A program made the translations under genes and the position numbers. 34,827 nucleotides of DNA from a virus, in the IMG/VR virus record IMGVR_UViG_3300006874_000050, positions 1-34,827 of that record; one strand, written 5' to 3'. Positions 5,109-34,210 of this stretch are shown here, in pieces; within the stretch, counting starts at the first letter, position 1; the number at the start of each line of letters is the position of its first letter. The notes under the pieces were generated by a model. The model was not told the DNA's origin. It searched no databases and worked only from the letters and a program-made list of their open reading frames with translations.

Positions 5109-5143
5109 GTTAAGATTGTTATTTATATCCTAACAATCTTAAC
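5109..5143 (-). other. 12-bp hairpin across the 3' end of the 5119-5550 gene
   Basis: GTTAAGATTGTT at 5109-5120 and its exact complement at 5132-5143 enclose an 11-base loop. The stem covers the last codons and the stop codon of the minus-strand gene. No T-run follows, so it is unlikely to be a terminator; it may protect the mRNA end or reflect selection on 3' structure. Confidence 0.6.
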
Positions 5144-23072: not shown

Positions 23073-24602
23073 TTATATGAGATCAACAGATTTAACAATC
23101 TTATCTAACCATCCCTTATTTTTCAAATATGGTATGACCGTGTAACTAACAGGTTTTACGTCAGATGTTAACGACATTGGAAATCTTGCAGCAAACATGT
23201 CTTGCCGTTCATCGTAAATTTCTTTAATCTTGTCAATTTGTAAATCTTCACGCTTTAATTCATTACCGTTTTCATCATGTACCCCTACATACCAAAATTC
23301 TGTATCTTCATATGTTGGTGGTAGTTCAGCCCAGGGTATGAAAAAATCTACACACCAGTTTTTAACCCATTTAATTTCTTTATTAAAATATGGGTATTCT
23401 GGTACAATGTGATCACGGCATTCTGTTGAGATTGAACGTGTTTTGAAATTTATACCAGCATATCGTTCATATTCCGCAAGAGAGCGAACTTTACCAAAAC
23501 CGTATTCATCACCAAAATTTATTTGATTCGGATCTTCTCCATCCATACCAAATAAAATCCGATTACGTTTATGACACATATCATTAACTTCATACCAATC
23601 GTGTTCCCTACCTTGTTCCTTATTATTGTCATCCCAATGATGTGGTCTACCCTTTCTGGTATATTCATGATAGCATACAATTTTATGTGGATGAAATAGA
23701 TCGTATCCGTGAGTGTATGCTCTTACAGCAATACTAATTTCTTCGCCATGGAAATAATAATTTGGATCGTGTGGGACTTCTTTACACATTTTTCCAGTTG
23801 TAAAACAAAAATGAGCTGAATAAAACCTACTTGCAATTGGTTCTTGTTGTTCTTGTTTTGACATGGATGTTGGTAAGAAGAAAATTGCACCTTCTGGAAT
23901 AAATCTATCAAATACCATCTTCCACGGATCAACCTCAAACCCGTTTTCATATGTGTAATTAGTTGTTCCATCCGTCCCTTCTAACCATGGCTTATAGCTC
24001 GTTACATATCCAGTAAATAATGGTTTTTCAAATCCTTTATCTTGCATGTAATAATACATACTCTTAAGTTCTGAGTCCCAATGCTTTACAAACCTATGAT
24101 GTGAATCAATTGCTAATGTAAATTCTTCTTCGCAATATAAATGTTGGATTGTGTGTCTTGCCCAACATGTTCCATGACTAATATTATTCGGGACATCGAT
24201 AATACGAAATGCTGGATCAGTTTGATAATTATACATTTCCTTATCAAAATCATCATCTTGATTATGTTGCCAACAAATCCCAAAAGTTAAATTTTCTGGA
24301 TTATCAGCATTATCAATAATACTCTTAATTGTTTTAACTAATTCAGGATCCCGATATGCAGCAATTTGTATAAAAATCTTTTGGTTCCCTTTACGGGATT
24401 GATCGATTATTTCATGATAATTTGTACCGACTAAATCACGAAATTGTTTTTGTTTAGCTGTGGGTGTATCAATAATCGGGGTTGATTGATTATTCGGTAA
24501 GGGGGTATCTGGGGGAGATTTTCGTTTTGGTTCGGTTGAAATTCGACTGAAATCTAGTTGAGAATTGATCTTATTTTTACGAATGATTTTAATACCTGGC
24601 AT
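23073..24602 (-). CDS. GlcNAc-type glycosyltransferase (PF11397-like), copy 1, with N-terminal extension
   Basis: 509 residues from ATG at 24602. An upstream GTG at 24620 would add six residues, but ATG sits in the loop of a striking hairpin after a TATAATAT box and is preferred. The first ~70 residues are basic and Pro-rich (KRKSPPDTPLPNN). The catalytic part then repeats the family blocks of its paralogue: IFIQIAAYRDPELVKTI, GICWQ, GTCWARHTIQHL, AIDSHHRF and FHGEEISIAVRAYTHGYDLF. Probably cytoplasmic, transferring a sugar (GlcNAc in characterised relatives) from a nucleotide donor. Tandem duplication with the 451-residue gene suggests two related acceptor specificities. The start-site hairpin suggests stage-specific translation. 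Confidence 0.85.
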   Translation of the reverse strand: MPGIKIIRKNKINSQLDFSRISTEPKRKSPPDTPLPNNQSTPIIDTPTAKQKQFRDLVGTNYHEIIDQSRKGNQKIFIQIAAYRDPELVKTIKSIIDNADNPENLTFGICWQHNQDDDFDKEMYNYQTDPAFRIIDVPNNISHGTCWARHTIQHLYCEEEFTLAIDSHHRFVKHWDSELKSMYYYMQDKGFEKPLFTGYVTSYKPWLEGTDGTTNYTYENGFEVDPWKMVFDRFIPEGAIFFLPTSMSKQEQQEPIASRFYSAHFCFTTGKMCKEVPHDPNYYFHGEEISIAVRAYTHGYDLFHPHKIVCYHEYTRKGRPHHWDDNNKEQGREHDWYEVNDMCHKRNRILFGMDGEDPNQINFGDEYGFGKVRSLAEYERYAGINFKTRSISTECRDHIVPEYPYFNKEIKWVKNWCVDFFIPWAELPPTYEDTEFWYVGVHDENGNELKREDLQIDKIKEIYDERQDMFAARFPMSLTSDVKPVSYTVIPYLKNKGWLDKIVKSVDLI

Positions 24603-24634
24603 ATTATATATTATATACACCAGGTATTAAAATC
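24585..24634 (-). promoter_or_regulatory. 15-bp perfect inverted repeat with promoter box and start codon in its loop
   Basis: On the minus strand GATTTTAATACCTGG (24634-24620) and its exact complement (24599-24585) enclose a 20-base loop. The loop contains TATAATAT (24615-24608) and ends with the ATG at 24602. The downstream arm encodes residues 2-6 of the glycosyltransferase. A transcript from the internal box would start at or near ATG and lack the upstream arm; a read-through transcript would carry the full hairpin. Confidence 0.75.
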
Positions 24635-24639
24635 AACCA

Positions 24640-25464
24640 CTAAACCGTGTACTTAAAATAATCGTAAAACCAACCGTAAAAGTTAGCAACCCATTGAGCG
24701 GCATCACGACCTAATACTTGATTGAAATCATTTGATTGAACTTCAACCTTATTTCGGATAGTATGATCTCCATAGATTCCATACACTTCATCATCTTCTT
24801 TTGTAATTTGTTGCACGTTATTAAAATCATGATTATAATTTGGTACCTCTAAATAATCATAAATTCTTTTCAATTGTTGAGCTGGATATGCTGTTAGATC
24901 TTCATACTTAACAAATAACATATCTTTATCATTACCTTCTTTGATAATTTGTTTTAATCGTTCAAAAGCGAGACCAACTGGTTGAGATTGTACCCAAATA
25001 TCAATACGTTGTTCTGTTGTAATACCTTGCATATTATTATCATTAACAACAGGAGATGATGTATGAGCTGATTGTCTATGGATTTTTTCCATAGAACTGA
25101 TAATAGCTCTAGGGTCCCGGACCATACAAATAATTTTCGGTTCTGGTTGAAAAAATTTAATGAAATTTTGATAATATCCCCATCCGCGTGATTTATCAAT
25201 CACGTATGGTTTGTTTGTAATGTTTTTATAAAACCCTTCAAATCCGCCTTTACAGAATCCACGGAAACCATCTTCCATTGTTTGCTGGTCTTGAGCTTGG
25301 AATTCAGGCGAATTGGTATAATTATGTCTTGCTGCATATAACAATTCAAGTACACCTGATGTTGGGGTAACATAAAAATCCGGGTTTTGACCAATTATGT
25401 TTTGCAATAATGTAGAGCCTGATCTAGGCAATGAACTCTGATAAAATATCTTTTGTGTTTCCAT
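24640..25464 (-). CDS. sulfotransferase (PAPS-dependent)
   Basis: 274 residues. The 5'-phosphosulfate loop SSLPRSGSTLL (10-20) and the 3'-phosphate element VRDPRAIISSM (115-125, with Arg116 and Ser123/Ser124) define the family. It transfers sulfate from PAPS to a hydroxyl group, probably on a sugar, given its neighbours. It depends on host PAPS, since no PAPS synthesis gene is seen here. ATG at 25464 has a strong AAGAGGA six bases upstream, but this lies inside the downstream arm of an 11-bp hairpin that also acts as terminator for the preceding gene. It ends six bases before the inverted repeat of the next gene. Sulfotransferases are uncommon in phages; some marine phages carry them. Confidence 0.9.
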   Translation of the reverse strand: METQKIFYQSSLPRSGSTLLQNIIGQNPDFYVTPTSGVLELLYAARHNYTNSPEFQAQDQQTMEDGFRGFCKGGFEGFYKNITNKPYVIDKSRGWGYYQNFIKFFQPEPKIICMVRDPRAIISSMEKIHRQSAHTSSPVVNDNNMQGITTEQRIDIWVQSQPVGLAFERLKQIIKEGNDKDMLFVKYEDLTAYPAQQLKRIYDYLEVPNYNHDFNNVQQITKEDDEVYGIYGDHTIRNKVEVQSNDFNQVLGRDAAQWVANFYGWFYDYFKYTV

Positions 25465-25468
25465 AAAA

Positions 25469-25495
25469 AATCCTCTTAATTAATTTAAGAGGATT
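25469..25495 (-). terminator. terminator-like hairpin that also holds the sulfotransferase ribosome binding site
   Basis: AATCCTCTTAA (25495-25485 on the minus strand), a 5-base loop and TTAAGAGGATT (25479-25469) form an 11-bp stem followed by a run of T reaching the ATG at 25464. It can end transcription of the 86-residue gene. The downstream arm contains AAGAGGA, the Shine-Dalgarno sequence of the sulfotransferase, so folding would also hide this site. Confidence 0.8.
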
Positions 25496-26387: not shown

Positions 26388-27292
26388 ATCGATCTTAAAA
26401 ATTCTTCCCATTCCGTTATACGTGCATCCCAATTCCATCGAGGCTCGTATATTGATCTTTGTGTAGATAATTGAGAATCAAGTTCACCGTTACGTACTTT
26501 AGTGATCTCATCATCGAAAATTTCGGAGAATAACGCGACATGTTGTTCAAAGTCTCCTACATAGTTGTACATACGAGCCCAACCTTCTGTTGTCTCCGGT
26601 AAAGCTCCCAAGGAAGAACAAACAACCCTTAAACCACACGATAATGCTTCGATCACACTAATACAAGATGTTTCTTCGAACGAAGATGGATAAGCTAACA
26701 TATCAAAATCCTGTAATTCATTTCGAAGAGTTTCGTTTGAAATATTACCTCTATAAATCACACCTTTTGTGTTCTTACATTTATCATATAACTCATTGTA
26801 ATATTCTTTTTGTTGAGCATGAAAATCCTTCCCGTAAATTTCGGTTCCAGAAAAAACGTGTAGTTCAGCTTTATCTGGTGCGAGTTTATTCCATGCTTCA
26901 ACTAATACATCTAACCCTCTCCAAGGTGTTGATGTATAACAAACTCGAACAACATCATCTGTTGATTTAGTCCGTTCGTCAACACCAATACATGCGTTTT
27001 TGATTACTTTGATTTTATTTGCTGGAATTGGAAATAATTTCTTAAACATCTCAGCTTGCCAATAACTTACAAACACGAAGTGATCAATTTGATTTACATT
27101 ATTCGGGTCTGTCAAGAAATTTACTGCTTGTTGATCGTATGATAATTGATTCCAATATACCGTTTTTTTCGAGGTATCTGCATACGTTGGATAGTTAAAT
27201 ATTGAAATATTATCAAATTTACCATCTAATCGTTTTTGGAGCTCATTATACATAAGCTCTGTACCTCCCATGGGTTTTACAAATTCGTTCAT
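26384..27292 (-). CDS. GT4-type glycosyltransferase (GT-B fold)
   Basis: 302 residues, somewhat short for the family; the N-terminal lobe appears reduced. GGTEL (9-13) gives the usual N-terminal loop. VCYTSTPWRGLDVLVEAW (about 117-134) marks the start of the donor-binding lobe. SSFEETSCISVIEALSCGL (about 208-226) carries the E-x7-E nucleotide-sugar motif. It would transfer a sugar from a nucleotide donor with retention of configuration. ATGA overlaps on both sides show co-translation with the upstream GT-A enzyme and the downstream FkbM enzyme. Confidence 0.88.
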   Translation of the reverse strand: MNEFVKPMGGTELMYNELQKRLDGKFDNISIFNYPTYADTSKKTVYWNQLSYDQQAVNFLTDPNNVNQIDHFVFVSYWQAEMFKKLFPIPANKIKVIKNACIGVDERTKSTDDVVRVCYTSTPWRGLDVLVEAWNKLAPDKAELHVFSGTEIYGKDFHAQQKEYYNELYDKCKNTKGVIYRGNISNETLRNELQDFDMLAYPSSFEETSCISVIEALSCGLRVVCSSLGALPETTEGWARMYNYVGDFEQHVALFSEIFDDEITKVRNGELDSQLSTQRSIYEPRWNWDARITEWEEFLRSI

Positions 27293-27963
27293 AATTTATA
27301 TTTGTTTACTTTTAAATAGTTGTAAATATTACCTTGATATTTTTTAGGTCCGATATGATTGATTGTAATTGTTGGGTCCATCCAGATTTTATGTTCATCG
27401 TTCAACGCTTTCCATTTATTACACATTGTATAATCTTCACTAATCAATATATCGTCCTTGATTATGACATCAAATATCATTCGATCTACTCCAGGTTTAT
27501 TTTCATGTTTATATGGTGCGGATGATTGATATAATTGTTTAAATGCATTTCTGGATACTTTCAAAAACCCAGTTCCAATACCATCAACTTCAATTAGATC
27601 TCTTCTTGAGTTATATGTGATATTTTGATTAGTAATTTTGCATGTATATCCTTCATTCACATCATCTTTTTTAACTAAAGCAGCTCCTACAACATCTTCA
27701 GGATACTGTAAGAATTTAAATATCCATTGCGGATCCCATTCAACATCTGAATCAATGAAAAATATATCATCGTAATTTTCTTCCATTGCGATAGTTACTA
27801 GAGAATTTCTAGCTCTTTGAACTAGGCTATCGAAGCTTGTATAGACTGCAGTAATATGGGTATCGAAATTAGGAGCGATCCGGATAGTGTTAACTAATGA
27901 ATTAACATACCAAACATCTAATCTACCATCATGAGATGGTGTTCCTATAAGAACTTTCCTCAT
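27289..27963 (-). CDS. GT-A fold glycosyltransferase
   Basis: 224 residues. KVLIGTPSHDGRLDVWY at the N-terminus, LVQRARNSLVTIAM (about 47-60) and IFFIDSDVEWDP with its DxD-type motif (about 67-78) are typical of small GT-A transferases that bind a nucleotide sugar with Mn. VGAALVKK and a HIGPKKYQ near the C-terminus fit the same fold. First gene of the overlapping GT-A, GT4, FkbM block. Its start codon lies in the loop of a 13-bp inverted repeat together with a TATAATAT box; no Shine-Dalgarno sequence is visible. It begins 35 bases after the giant fibre gene ends. Confidence 0.83.
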   Translation of the reverse strand: MRKVLIGTPSHDGRLDVWYVNSLVNTIRIAPNFDTHITAVYTSFDSLVQRARNSLVTIAMEENYDDIFFIDSDVEWDPQWIFKFLQYPEDVVGAALVKKDDVNEGYTCKITNQNITYNSRRDLIEVDGIGTGFLKVSRNAFKQLYQSSAPYKHENKPGVDRMIFDVIIKDDILISEDYTMCNKWKALNDEHKIWMDPTITINHIGPKKYQGNIYNYLKVNKYKL

Positions 27964-27985
27964 ATATTAATATTATAGGAACACC
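27938..27985 (-). promoter_or_regulatory. 13-bp perfect inverted repeat with promoter box and start codon in its loop
   Basis: On the minus strand GGTGTTCCTATAA (27985-27973) and TTATAGGAACACC (27950-27938) pair across 22 bases that contain the ATG at 27963. TATAATAT (27977-27970) lies six bases before ATG and straddles the upstream arm. The downstream arm encodes residues 5-9. A read-through transcript can fold; one begun at the box would lack the upstream arm. Confidence 0.72.
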
Positions 27986-27997
27986 TCAATAAATCAA

Positions 27998-30900
27998 TTA
28001 CATATTTTCTAATTTATTAATTCGATCTTTAAGTAATGCATTATCGTTTTCTAATACTTCAACTCGGTCAACTAATTGATTCACTGCTTTTACTAATGGA
28101 GCGATTAATTCTTCATAAGTTAATCGATATGCATCTTTTTCTTTATCATGGCCTAAACCATCGAATTCAATACCTAATTGATCGATAGATTCTTTAACAT
28201 CTTGAGCAATAAAACCGTAGTGGCATTTATCAGACTTCAGCGAACCGTCTTTATCACCATAAATGTATGAACATTTATCAACATAAAGATCACGATGATC
28301 TGATTTGTAACTTACAGGTTTTAATTTTCTGATGAAACTAATACCGTATGTATCAGGTAATTCAGATATATCTGTTTTATCTCTGCAATCAGAAACTGTT
28401 GCCCAAGCAGCATATACACAATTACAAACATTATTTGATGCATTACCCCACACTGTATGACCATCTGTTAATGATGTTTGAGCTCCACAACCAATTGCAA
28501 TAATATCGCTCTGGGTAGTAATATTACAACCAGCATTCACACCAACAGTTGTATTATTTACACCAGTAGAGTTGTTGAAAAGAGATTGATATCCAACAGA
28601 TGTATTAGAATTACCGGTTGTGTTACAGTACAGGGAATTCACCCCATAAGCTGTATTATTTACCCCGGTTGTGTTGGAATAGAGAGCTTGTACCCCAACA
28701 GCTGTATTATAATTACCGGTTGTGTTGGAATTGAGAGAATTCAACCCGACAGCTGTATTACTTACACCGGTTGTATTGCTCCGGAGAGAATCCAACCCGA
28801 CAGCTGTATTACTTACACCTGTTGTATTGGAAAAGAGAGCTTGTGCCCCAACAGCTATATTATAATTACCGGTTGTGTTGGAATAGAGAGAAAACATCCC
28901 ATGAGCTGTATTATAAGTACCGGTTGTGTTGGAATAGAGAGCTTGTGCCCCAACAGCTGTATTATAAGTACCGGTTGTGTTGGAATAGAGAGAAAACATC
29001 CCATGAGCTGTATTATAAGTACCGGTTGTGTTGGAATAGAGAGATACATACCCACTAGCGGTATTACATCCACCGGTTGTGTTGAAATAGAGAGATCTAT
29101 ATCCGTGAGCTGTATTATTTACCCCGGTTGTATTGGAAAAGAGAGATCTAACTCCACTAGCAACATTACGACAACCGGTTGTATTACCATATAAAGATTG
29201 ATGCCCGACCGTTGTGTTGTCACTACCAGTTGTATTACTCCTTAACGATTCTTGACCAACAGCTGTATTCGAATTACCCGTTGTATTACTATATAAAGAT
29301 TGAAATCCAAACGCTGCATTATAACAACCAATTGTGTTTGATCTTAATGCTGCATACCCACTTGCTGTATTACAATCACCGGTTGTATTACATTGTAATG
29401 AACGCATACCGGATGCTGTATTAAAATTACCGGTTGTATTACTATATAATGCAACATAACCGCTAGCTGTATTGTAACAACCAGTTGTATTAGCCGGTAA
29501 TGCACAATAACCTAAACCGGTATTACATTGACCGGTTGTATTGCTTCTCATTGCGGCATAACCAACTGCTGTATTCCAAGCACCGGTTGTGTTAGCACAT
29601 AATGTATGCATACCAACTGCAGTATTTCTTACACCCTCTGTATTCAATAAGAGAGATCCATATCCAACAGCTGTATTATAAATACCTGTTGTGTTTGCGC
29701 GAAGGGTTGCGTATCCTAAACCTGTATTACCATCCCCAGTAGTGTTTAAGCAAAGTGATTCATAACCGACAGCAGTGTTACCACTCACTGTATTACACTT
29801 AAGAGCATTACGACCAACCGCAACATTATCAATGCTATTTGTATTTACAAAAAGTGCGCACGTACCAATAGCTACATTATTAATACCAGTTTTATTGCAA
29901 TACAATGCTTGGTATCCACTAGCCGTATTATTTGATCCGGATGTATTAAATTGTAATGCACCAACACCAAATGATGTATTATTTGAACCGGTAGTGTTAT
30001 TACGAAGAGCTCCTTTTCCACTCGCTGTGTTACGTGAACCGGTCGTGTTATAACGCATCGACGTATAACCACTTGCTGTATTATCTCCACCGGTGGTGTT
30101 GGAATAGAGAGATGAATGCCCAACAGCCGTATTATATGTACCGGTAGTATTAGCATACAATGAATTTGAACCAACAGCTGTATTGGAAGTTCCAGTAGTA
30201 TTATTTCGTAGAGATGAATAACCTAAACTTGAGTTCCCTGATCCAGTGGTGTTTGCAAATCCAGAAAACGATCCAACAGCTGTATTAGTATTACCTATTG
30301 TATTACATTTTAATGAATTATATCCGTATGCTGTGATAAAACACCCGGTTGTATTTGCGCATGCGCTATACAATCCCGACGCTGTATTATAATCACCAGT
30401 TGTATTAGAGTAAAGAGATTGATAACCAATTGCTGTATTAAATCTCCCGACCGTGTTAGATAAAAGGGATTGATGACCAACAGCTGTACTCCAAATACCG
30501 GTTGTGTTGTTGAAAAGAGAACTTACACCAACAGCTACGTTATTATCCCCTACAGTATTGTTATACAATGAATTCGAACCGATAGCTATATTATTTGCTC
30601 CTGTTGTATTACAATATAATGATTGAAACCCTAAACCAACATTATTAGAACCAGTAGTATTATACCGCATTGAATATAATCCCATTGATACATTATTTGA
30701 TCCAGTTGTATTACAGTGTTGTGAAAACAATCCTGTAGCTATATTGCTTGTTCCGGTTGTATTGCTAAACAATGCTTCACGACCAATTGCAACAATACTA
30801 TCAACGGTAGTATTAAATGCTGCTTTATAACCACTAGCTGTATTATCATTCCCGGTTTGATTACAATATAGTGCGCATGCACCGCTTACGGTGTTTCGGA

Positions 30901-33900
30901 TACCGGTTGTGTTATTAAATGCTGCTTTATATCCGCTTGCACTATTTGAATTACCGGTTGTGTTGGAATAGAGAGACCACATCCCACTAGCTGTATTATT
31001 AACACCGGTTGTGTTATTATAGAGAGATTGATATCCAATAGCTGTATTATCATTACCAGTTGTGTTGGAAAAGAGAGAATACATCCCTTGAGCTGTATTA
31101 CAATCACCGGTTGTGTTGGAAAAGAGAGAACACATCCCTTGAGCTGTATTATTTGAACCGGTTGTGTTGGAAAAGAGAGATGCATACCCAACAGCTGTAT
31201 TATTTACCCCGGTTGTGTTGGAAAAGAGAGAATACATCCCTTGAGCTGTATTATAAGAACCGGTTGTGTTGGAAAAGAGAGATTGATACCCAACAGCTGT
31301 ATTATTTACACCGGTCGTGTTTGAACGGAGAGAATACATCCCTTGAGCTGTATTATAAGAACCGGTTGTGTTGGAAAAGAGAGATTGATACCCAACAGTT
31401 GTATTATTTACACCGGTCGTGTTAGCAAAAAGAGCACACGTCCCTTGAGCTGTATTATAAGAACCGGTGGTGTTATACCGGAGAGAATACATCCCACTAG
31501 CTGTATTATAATTACCGGTTGTGTTATCAAAAAGAGATCTATAACCAATACTAGTATTATAAGAACCGGAGGTGTTGGTATATAATGATTGATGACCAAC
31601 AGCTGTGTTAGGTTTACCGGTTGTATTATTTCTTAATGCTTCATTACCAATACCTGTATTACAACTTGTATTATTTTCACCTAACGCTCCATACCCAAAC
31701 GCAGCATTTTCATTACCGCTAATATTATATTGTAATGCATATGCACCAACAGCTGTATTTCGTATTGCAATTGTTGATTTTTCTCCAGCTAAAACACCCA
31801 CTGCAACGTTATCGGTACCTGTGGTAATATTACTCAATGCATAATAACCGTTTGCAACATTATTATAACCAGTAGTATTACAAATCATTGAATAATAGCC
31901 ACTTGCTGTATTGTAATAACCACCGATATTTGATCTTAATGCAGATCTACCAATAGCTGTGTTACGCGTACCGGTTGTATTTGAACATAAAGCGGTCATC
32001 CCAATAGCTACGTTAGATCTACCGGTTGTGTTATTATATAACGCTGCAAATCCAACAGCCACCCCATCTTGACCGGTTGTATTTAAAAATAATGCCTGAG
32101 CTCCAATAGCTGTATTATAATTACCAGTTGTATTACAATAGAGAGAAAAAGTACCGGTAGCTGTATTATTTGAACCGGTGGTATTTGAACAAAGCGATTC
32201 ATAACCGTGAGCTGTATTATAATTCCCACTTATATTAGTCAAAAGTGCGTTTACTCCAACAGCTGTATTTCTTATACCTATGGTATTAGCACATAGAGCT
32301 GAATAACCAACAGCTGTATTAAGAGTTCCAGTAGTGTTAAACCGGAGAGAATACATCCCATGAGCTGTATTATAATTACCAGTTGTGTTGGAAAAGAGAG
32401 AATACATCCCATGAGCTGTATTATAATTACCAGTTGTGTTGGAAAAGAGAGAACACATACCATAGGCTGTGTTAGCTCCACCAATTGTGTTATTATATAG
32501 AGAATATACCCCACTAGCAGTATTACACGAACCGGTTGTGTTAGAGCGAAGAGCTGCCGTACCACTACCAGTATTACACGCTCCGGTAGTATTACTACAG
32601 ACCGAATTCAAACCTATAGCTGTGTTACGTGTACCGGTTGTATTATCGTTGAGGGATTGATATCCAACAGCTGTATTATAATTACCAGTTGTATTATTAC
32701 GAAGGGTATTCATCCCGTAGGCTGTATTAGACTCACCAGTTGTATTATTTCGAAGTGAATATGTGCCACTAGCTGTGTTGTTAGTTGCAGTTGTATTGCA
32801 AAATAAAGCTCGATATCCAGTTGCTGTATTGTTACCACCTGTTGTATTTGTATATAACGATTGATAACCAATAGCAATGTTTTGTATCCCCGTTATGTTA
32901 CCACGAAGAGCTTGAGACCCAGTAGCTACATTAAAACACCCGGTTGTATTATCAAATAAAGACTCATACCCAACAGCTGTGTTTTGTACTCCAGTTGTGT
33001 TATTATATAATGCTCTACTACCGTGTGCTGTATTACATGAACCGGTTGTGTTAGATCTTAATGCTGTATAACCACTTGCTGTATTACCAGTTCCGGTTGT
33101 ATTTAATAATGCTGCAGAATAACCGAATGCGGTGTTACATGATGCAGTGTTGTCCCGAAGAGCATACATACCAGATGCTGTGTTTTTTATCCCCGTTACA
33201 TTACTCGATAATGTTTTAGAACCAACCGCGGTGTTACCACTCACTGTATTACACTTAAGAGCATCACGACCAACCGCAACATTATCAATGCTAGTTGTAT
33301 TTGCAAAAAGTGCACACGTACCAATAGCTACATTATTAATACCAGTTGTATTGCAATACAATGCTTGGTACCCACTAGCCGTATTATTTGATCCGGTTGT
33401 ATTAAATTGTAATACACTCATTCCGGTAGCTGTATTATTATAACCAGTCGTATTACACCGAAGAGAATTATACCCAACAGCAGTATTAAAATTACCAATA
33501 GTATTAGAACATAGAGCTGCATAACCAACAGCTGCATTATTTACACCGGTTGTGTTAGTTAATAGAGCTGCATACCCGACAGCTGTATTATAATTACCGG
33601 TTGTGTTATACTGAAGAGAGACATACCCAACCGCTGTGTTATTTAAACCAGTGGTGTTACAACGGAGAGATGCATATCCATAAGCTGTATTATAACTTCC
33701 GGCAGTGTTTGAACGGAGAGAATACATACCACTAGCAGTATTCTGGGTTCCGGATGTATTTGAAAAGAGTGATTGCAACCCAACAGCCGTATTATTTGTC
33801 CCGACTGTATTATTATAGAGAGACCGGTCTCCAACAGCTGTATTATTAATACCTGTGGTATTAAACTGGATAGTTGAATATCCGACTGCTGTATTATTTA

Positions 33901-34210
33901 CCCCAGTAGTGTTAGAACAGAGAGATCGATAACCAACAGCTGTATTACTTCCACCGGTTGTATTACTATTGATTGCATTAACCCCTAGCGCCGTATTAGT
34001 TACCACGTCTCCAGCACCACAGCTAACCGTTAACCCGTTGATGCAACCGTTTTTATCGACTATAATCTTACCTCCGGTTGTTGCGGATAACATTAAAAGA
34101 CGTGAATCAGCCGCGGAATTCGTGTCTGTTACGTCCATCCTAACTGCATCGTACGTGGATAATGCATCATTCCACGTGTCCGTCATCTCATATACTGGTA
34201 TCTTTGCCAT
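27998..34210 (-). CDS. giant repetitive tail fibre / adhesin with C-terminal S74 chaperone
   Basis: 2070 residues. Residues 1-82 form a non-repetitive head, probably the attachment part. Residues 83-1913 are 108 tandem units of 17 residues (five have 16), consensus NTTGxYNTAVGYxSLxS. This resembles the left-handed beta-roll repeats of YadA/Hep_Hag adhesins and many phage fibres, so a long trimeric stalk is expected. Residues 1940-2070 are a peptidase S74 intramolecular chaperone: SDCRDK carries the catalytic Ser1940 and Lys1945, followed by FIRKLKPVSYK, YGFIAQDV and a C-terminal coiled coil (LVDRVEVLENDNALLKDRI). Self-cleavage before Ser1940 would release the last 131 residues after trimer folding. 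GAGAG lies eight bases before ATG, and a TATAAATA box plus related repeats lie further upstream. Likely the main receptor-binding or surface-adhesion fibre. Confidence 0.93.
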   Translation of the reverse strand: MAKIPVYEMTDTWNDALSTYDAVRMDVTDTNSAADSRLLMLSATTGGKIIVDKNGCINGLTVSCGAGDVVTNTALGVNAINSNTTGGSNTAVGYRSLCSNTTGVNNTAVGYSTIQFNTTGINNTAVGDRSLYNNTVGTNNTAVGLQSLFSNTSGTQNTASGMYSLRSNTAGSYNTAYGYASLRCNTTGLNNTAVGYVSLQYNTTGNYNTAVGYAALLTNTTGVNNAAVGYAALCSNTIGNFNTAVGYNSLRCNTTGYNNTATGMSVLQFNTTGSNNTASGYQALYCNTTGINNVAIGTCALFANTTSIDNVAVGRDALKCNTVSGNTAVGSKTLSSNVTGIKNTASGMYALRDNTASCNTAFGYSAALLNTTGTGNTASGYTALRSNTTGSCNTAHGSRALYNNTTGVQNTAVGYESLFDNTTGCFNVATGSQALRGNITGIQNIAIGYQSLYTNTTGGNNTATGYRALFCNTTATNNTASGTYSLRNNTTGESNTAYGMNTLRNNTTGNYNTAVGYQSLNDNTTGTRNTAIGLNSVCSNTTGACNTGSGTAALRSNTTGSCNTASGVYSLYNNTIGGANTAYGMCSLFSNTTGNYNTAHGMYSLFSNTTGNYNTAHGMYSLRFNTTGTLNTAVGYSALCANTIGIRNTAVGVNALLTNISGNYNTAHGYESLCSNTTGSNNTATGTFSLYCNTTGNYNTAIGAQALFLNTTGQDGVAVGFAALYNNTTGRSNVAIGMTALCSNTTGTRNTAIGRSALRSNIGGYYNTASGYYSMICNTTGYNNVANGYYALSNITTGTDNVAVGVLAGEKSTIAIRNTAVGAYALQYNISGNENAAFGYGALGENNTSCNTGIGNEALRNNTTGKPNTAVGHQSLYTNTSGSYNTSIGYRSLFDNTTGNYNTASGMYSLRYNTTGSYNTAQGTCALFANTTGVNNTTVGYQSLFSNTTGSYNTAQGMYSLRSNTTGVNNTAVGYQSLFSNTTGSYNTAQGMYSLFSNTTGVNNTAVGYASLFSNTTGSNNTAQGMCSLFSNTTGDCNTAQGMYSLFSNTTGNDNTAIGYQSLYNNTTGVNNTASGMWSLYSNTTGNSNSASGYKAAFNNTTGIRNTVSGACALYCNQTGNDNTASGYKAAFNTTVDSIVAIGREALFSNTTGTSNIATGLFSQHCNTTGSNNVSMGLYSMRYNTTGSNNVGLGFQSLYCNTTGANNIAIGSNSLYNNTVGDNNVAVGVSSLFNNTTGIWSTAVGHQSLLSNTVGRFNTAIGYQSLYSNTTGDYNTASGLYSACANTTGCFITAYGYNSLKCNTIGNTNTAVGSFSGFANTTGSGNSSLGYSSLRNNTTGTSNTAVGSNSLYANTTGTYNTAVGHSSLYSNTTGGDNTASGYTSMRYNTTGSRNTASGKGALRNNTTGSNNTSFGVGALQFNTSGSNNTASGYQALYCNKTGINNVAIGTCALFVNTNSIDNVAVGRNALKCNTVSGNTAVGYESLCLNTTGDGNTGLGYATLRANTTGIYNTAVGYGSLLLNTEGVRNTAVGMHTLCANTTGAWNTAVGYAAMRSNTTGQCNTGLGYCALPANTTGCYNTASGYVALYSNTTGNFNTASGMRSLQCNTTGDCNTASGYAALRSNTIGCYNAAFGFQSLYSNTTGNSNTAVGQESLRSNTTGSDNTTVGHQSLYGNTTGCRNVASGVRSLFSNTTGVNNTAHGYRSLYFNTTGGCNTASGYVSLYSNTTGTYNTAHGMFSLYSNTTGTYNTAVGAQALYSNTTGTYNTAHGMFSLYSNTTGNYNIAVGAQALFSNTTGVSNTAVGLDSLRSNTTGVSNTAVGLNSLNSNTTGNYNTAVGVQALYSNTTGVNNTAYGVNSLYCNTTGNSNTSVGYQSLFNNSTGVNNTTVGVNAGCNITTQSDIIAIGCGAQTSLTDGHTVWGNASNNVCNCVYAAWATVSDCRDKTDISELPDTYGISFIRKLKPVSYKSDHRDLYVDKCSYIYGDKDGSLKSDKCHYGFIAQDVKESIDQLGIEFDGLGHDKEKDAYRLTYEELIAPLVKAVNQLVDRVEVLENDNALLKDRINKLENM
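29775..29958 (-). repeat. dispersed duplicate block A of the fibre gene (partner 33231-33414)
   Basis: These 184 bases match 33231-33414 with seven mismatches by my count, 3,456 bp away. They cover repeat units 80-83, corresponding to units 12-15, including a distinctive 16-residue unit (NTVSGNTAVG). Confidence 0.85.
33231..33414 (-). repeat. dispersed duplicate block B of the fibre gene (partner 29775-29958)
   Basis: Partner of block A. Because both share an irregular unit order and an odd-length unit, they derive from one block copied by recombination or gene conversion, not from independent drift of the consensus. Confidence 0.85.

Follow-up and report, generated by a model that had tools for sequence, protein, structure and literature searches.

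The window analysed here, that is, the whole stretch of 34,827 nucleotides, is a 34.8-kb record of an uncultured virus, and matches to the families of the major head protein, protease, scaffold, neck and head-closure proteins identify it as a T4-like virus with a contractile tail. The gene under study, GT1 (23073-24602, minus strand, 509 aa), encodes a glycosyltransferase of the PF11397 GlcNAc family (phrog_24687). The gene upstream of it, on the same strand, encodes a sulfotransferase (PF13469; 24640-25464, 274 aa), and no terminator-like site was found between the two. Further up, a short glycosyltransferase-like gene with a weak Anp1 match (27289-27963, minus strand, 224 aa) sits directly downstream of a gene for a 2070-aa tail-fibre-like protein (27998-34210). 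The latter contains many repeats of about 21 residues (TGxNNTAxGxxSLxxNTTG), and its C-terminal part resembles, by eye, S74-type chaperone domains. For the 1100-aa gene, no relatives were found. Two other structures of the window are worth recording. A 13-bp inverted repeat at 5109-5143, where convergent genes meet, is probably a two-way terminator. At 25469-25495, an 11-bp hairpin with a T-run carries in its 3' arm AAGAGGA, the Shine-Dalgarno site of the sulfotransferase (start 25464); this hairpin is terminator-like and would also mask the sulfotransferase start in read-through RNA.

Across the start of GT1, the minus strand reads TAG TGGT TGATTTTAATACCTGG TGTATATAATATATAATATG CCAGGTATTAAAATCA. 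The upstream arm TGATTTTAATACCTGG (24620-24635, minus strand) and the downstream arm CCAGGTATTAAAATCA (24584-24599, minus strand) are perfectly complementary over 16 bp and separated by the 20-base loop TGTATATAATATATAATATG (24600-24619, minus strand), which contains both a -10 box and the start codon. The upstream arm begins four bases after the sulfotransferase stop codon (24640-24642) and is untranslated, while the downstream arm forms codons 2-6 of GT1 (Pro-Gly-Ile-Lys-Ile, plus one base). Within the loop, TATAATAT (24615-24608) is followed by five bases and then by the ATG (24602-24600), at the closing end of the loop; an additional GTG in the GT1 reading frame is found at 24620. A previous inspection of the letters alone (the sequence-only reading) had given the same arm placement and the same loop, and had rightly called the repeat perfect, with a length of 15 bp that has to be corrected to 16. 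It is the longest inverted repeat in the window and exceeds chance: arms of at least 16 bp around a loop of 10-30 bases occurred in 0 of 400 dinucleotide shuffles of the window, and any arms of at least 13 bp in 12 of 400. No Rfam match at gathering score was obtained in the window.

The box in the loop was compared with two promoter classes of the virus group. The early-type class, so labelled from resemblance and strand and not from timing, was trained on 28 genes with the layout TTGATA-N16/17-TATAAT, all lying on the strand that does not carry gp23; in 24 of them, the distance from the -10 element to the ATG is exactly 6 nt. GT1 has a -35 element TTGATT (24631-24636, minus strand), mostly within the upstream arm, and a -10 element TATAAT (24610-24615, minus strand) in the loop, which gives TTGATT-N15-TATAAT-N7-ATG. 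Its early-type score is 9.8 (p = 0.0005) and its late-box score -4.6 (p = 0.22). To judge from its motifs, the box is thus the -10 element of an early-type -35/-10 promoter and not a T4 late promoter, as the sequence-only reading had implied. The RNA of GT1 is predicted to start at 24603-24602, i.e., at the ATG or one base before it, according to the usual distance from a sigma70 -10 element and to the T4 late-box rule (PMC2988020). Early-type starts in the window are those at 2854 (plus strand), 4147 (plus strand), 24602 and 27963. The last two, on the virion-gene strand, come immediately after other genes, and a repeat encloses each of these starts. Gene 2854 is preceded, in the divergent gap at 2795-2853, by a perfect TTGACA-N16-TATAAT whose -10 element is nine bases ahead of the ATG. 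A general scan for the sigma70 consensus gave 53 matches against 52 expected, no commoner than in shuffles; in DNA this rich in A+T it is uninformative, and weight can be given only to conservation and to a constant spacing from the start. On the gp23 strand, most TTGA matches are coding motifs within gp23 (the MSGPVGLAFA series) and were discarded.

Folding of the GT1 stretch from the -35 element through codon 8 gave -26.2 kcal/mol (z = -8.3), and none of 200 shuffles was equally stable. The accessibility of the start was assessed as the energy needed to open positions -5 to +12, and also a wider window, at 1145 gene starts drawn from the window together with about 100 loci in its relatives. 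Freeing this region in the GT1 read-through RNA costs 21.5 kcal/mol, the highest value among all the starts (mean 5.4, 99th percentile 14.8 kcal/mol), against 0.5 kcal/mol in an RNA beginning at the ATG. As far as folding can tell, the start of GT1 is masked in read-through RNA and the masking depends on the upstream arm, in agreement with the earlier proposal that read-through RNA would be shut and RNA begun at the box free. What the hairpin encloses is the AUG region alone; no Shine-Dalgarno site precedes GT1. Such hairpins are not a general trait: over all genes of the group, those enclosing start codons were not enriched (observed equals permuted), and a weak 7-bp repeat at the 19093 start was rejected as what chance yields.

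The second start-enclosing hairpin, not mentioned in the sequence-only reading of the GT1 start, belongs to the short glycosyltransferase-like gene at 27289-27963. Its upstream arm GGTGTTCCTATAA (27973-27985, minus strand) and downstream arm TTATAGGAACACC (27938-27950, minus strand; codons 5-9) pair perfectly over 13 bp, with the start codon at 27963 in a loop of 22 nt. A -35 element TTGATT (27992-27997, minus strand) follows directly after the tail-fibre stop, 28 nt ahead of the ATG (early-type score 5.8, p = 0.0075), and the -10 box extends across the point where the upstream arm ends. Opening this start costs 12.0 kcal/mol for positions -18 to +15 (85th percentile) and only 1.1 kcal/mol for -5 to +12, and the leaderless RNA retains some structure of its own. 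With the start itself open within the 22-nt loop and a leaderless RNA that is partly structured, a gate at this gene would be looser. No further orthologues of the gene were found in viral contigs; the only matches obtained were distant ones in phages.

The MPGIKI N-terminus of GT1 is common to four orthologues: those of the window, G001 (L003/L004), G004 and L205/L293. In G001, a helix of 8 pairs with one bulge is formed by TATTC-TGG and CCAGGAATA (z = -3.4, a stability that none of 200 shuffles reached). Compared with the window, it shows compensatory exchanges of two pairs, both at third positions of codons and both synonymous (GGT ATT versus GGA ATA). In G004 and L205/L293, the promoter is present and no upstream arm matches codons 2-6. 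Compensatory changes of the arms, for which the sequence-only reading had proposed to compare related phages, are found in the bulged helix of G001. In the other two orthologues the coding arm is kept and its partner is missing, so the outcome which that reading had named as refuting, one arm changing without the other, is in part observed. Across the sequences compared, the promoter is conserved while the hairpin, kept in one orthologue and absent from two others, appears lineage-specific. Templated mutation may have contributed to the perfect match of its arms. Between the -35 and -10 elements before the MPGIKI start of L293 (L205), there is a self-complementary TCCCCGGGGA, whose high G+C content is unusual for this AT-rich DNA. 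The MPGIKI start pattern was matched in 11 contigs, in which the known orthologues were the only real genes.

TTGAWN-N16-TAAAAT (or TAAATT/TAAATG) is found 27-29 nt before the ATG or GTG in nine of ten glycosyltransferase homologues, with differing spacers; the tenth, G016, lacks the -35 element. The early-type score reached p < 0.02 in seven of the nine homologues with the promoter, the other two being G035 (0.06) and G007 (0.18). G007, a more distant homologue, has a different hairpin with the start codon in the stem (z = -2.7). Ten homologous starts, window excluded, are more structured (mean z = -1.16) than late-box starts (-0.06; p = 0.011), with an excess that is not significant against early-type starts (p = 0.16). 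Two further sets of 80 glycosyltransferase homologues lay mostly in other contexts and added only L205 and L207 as useful starts. Several homologues (L096-L100, L207, L214 and L234) have GTG at the predicted leaderless start, which calls for caution, since AUG is the start codon for which leaderless translation is best documented.

The position of the promoter at GT1 agrees with a more general arrangement of the group, as observed in the window and in loci L005-L084 and L105-L124. In the relatives, the late box nATAAATA ends 5-7 nt before the ATG in 182 genes, against about 5 expected, and an unselected count of first ATGs has the same mode (78 at a gap of 5, 29 at 6 and 18 at 7). The same count gave gaps of 12-35 nt in T4 and of 15-47 nt in the cyanophages S-SM2 and Syn9. 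The T4 late box begins at -13 (PMC2988020) and therefore extends from there to -6; with a gap of 5, +1 would fall on the A of the ATG. Shine-Dalgarno-like sites precede 4% of the late-box genes, compared with 6% in shuffled sequences, 71% in T4 and about 30% in S-SM2 and Syn9. Early- and late-type promoters adjacent to the start, together with the near absence of Shine-Dalgarno sites, indicate that leaderless messages are likely the rule across this virus group, unlike in T4. The earlier suggestion of a leaderless GT1 RNA is thus borne out as a prediction from promoter spacing and from the missing Shine-Dalgarno site, although it is not peculiar to GT1, since the spacing is group-wide. No prior report of such leaderless gating or of the group-wide spacing was found in the literature searched, the coverage of which was incomplete.

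These features can be accommodated in a cis-acting gate that couples promoter choice to the translation of a leaderless GT1 message, a reading that we hold tentatively and at slightly less than an even chance. The host-sigma70-like, early-type promoter of GT1 (TTGATT-N15-TATAAT) would place the RNA start at the ATG, and this RNA, free of the upstream arm, would have an open start and be translated. RNA entering from the sulfotransferase gene or, further up, from the virion and tail-fibre genes would instead carry the upstream arm, fold into the 16-bp hairpin, bury the start region and remain untranslated. The purpose might be to prevent expression of the glycosyltransferase from late virion transcripts. 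For this gate, the repeat, the energies, the promoter class, the spacing and the partial conservation were computed, and from them we infer the RNA ends, the read-through, the silence, the timing and the purpose. A wider scenario, in which this large group brought its promoters of both types, early and late, up to the start codon, adopted leaderlessness as a rule and uses hairpins to silence late read-through into early-type genes on the virion-gene strand, seems to us rather unlikely.

The closest known precedent is in T4, where read-through RNA of e, soc, 49 and I-TevI folds over the start and RNA from an inner promoter, being without the 5' strand, stays open (PMC3014915). The GT1 start region is likewise sequestered, by folding, in upstream-initiated RNA, and its promoter is set so that the predicted RNA begins after the 5' strand of that helix. 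The sequence-only reading had adopted the T4 logic, in which early read-through is shut off and translation is confined to late RNA that a late promoter within the hairpin supplies. This anatomy, a T4-like genome and the use of late boxes at other genes speak in its favor, yet the GT1 box is not nATAAATA (-4.6, p = 0.22), a conserved -35 element is present, and late-box genes of the group show no enrichment of a TTGA -35 element (3% versus 9% in other genes). What stands of that proposal is the masked start and the inner promoter; its promoter class does not hold and its timing probably does not either, and we regard it as unlikely. Because the promoter of GT1 is early-type and the upstream genes belong to the virion block, the silenced RNA would be late read-through, the opposite timing to that of T4 gene e. 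GT1 also differs from e and soc in having an early-type -35/-10 promoter and not TATAAATA, in lacking a Shine-Dalgarno site, in an RNA predicted to be leaderless and in its product, a glycosyltransferase. In comparison with the late promoters of T4 and cyanophages (TATAAATA / NATAAATA; PMC2988020, PMC2984593), the group shares the box at many genes of the virion-gene strand but with the 5-7 nt gap noted above, and the GT1 box is of another class.

Other explanations dispense with promoter choice. The four bases from stop codon to arm and the missing Shine-Dalgarno site would suit translational coupling, in which the ribosome terminating the sulfotransferase melts the upstream arm, enables the GT1 start and so links both proteins; nevertheless, such a ribosome would cover just about half of the 16-bp arm, the arm of the second case lies 12 bases past its stop, and the conserved promoter supplies GT1 with its own RNA, which leaves coupling as improbable as the T4 order of events. 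It is a shade less probable that the repeat is functionless, a product of template switching (quasi-palindrome correction) in an AT-rich spacer. Its perfect arms suggest a recent origin, it is missing in two of three orthologues, and changes that produced the match are not confined to the spacer but include two synonymous sites of the coding arm; against this stand the second start-enclosing repeat of the window, the partial helix of G001 with compensatory changes and the excess structure of the homologous starts. Least probable is a 3' end stabiliser or weak terminator of the upstream RNA with no role at the start codon, for although both hairpins directly follow the stop codon of a same-strand gene, neither stem has a coding-strand U-run, no terminator-like site was called there, and both enclose the start codon and promoter of the next gene. 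Intrinsic terminators combine a G+C-rich stem with a U-run, and the GT1 hairpin differs from them in this respect. PeSL cassettes of T4-type phages have a promoter beside a stem-loop in a short intergenic gap; GT1 resembles them in this combination and differs in that its stem encloses the promoter and the start codon, without a terminator tail.

Leaderless messages are known from bacteria and from phages. The lambda cI mRNA from PRM is leaderless, and the predicted GT1 RNA is similar to the leaderless mRNAs of bacteria and phages in starting at the start codon and having no ribosome-binding site. To our knowledge, however, the phage cases are single genes, while in the T4-related group studied here the spacing of both promoter types, early and late, is suited to leaderlessness. 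If the gate is real, promoter choice would be coupled to translation by one sequence element, without a protein or a ribosome-binding site, and the read-through switch of T4 would operate in the opposite temporal direction. The promoter spacing of 5-7 nt throughout a T4-related group would point to a complex lytic virus with mostly leaderless messages, which would bear on how translation starts in its hosts.
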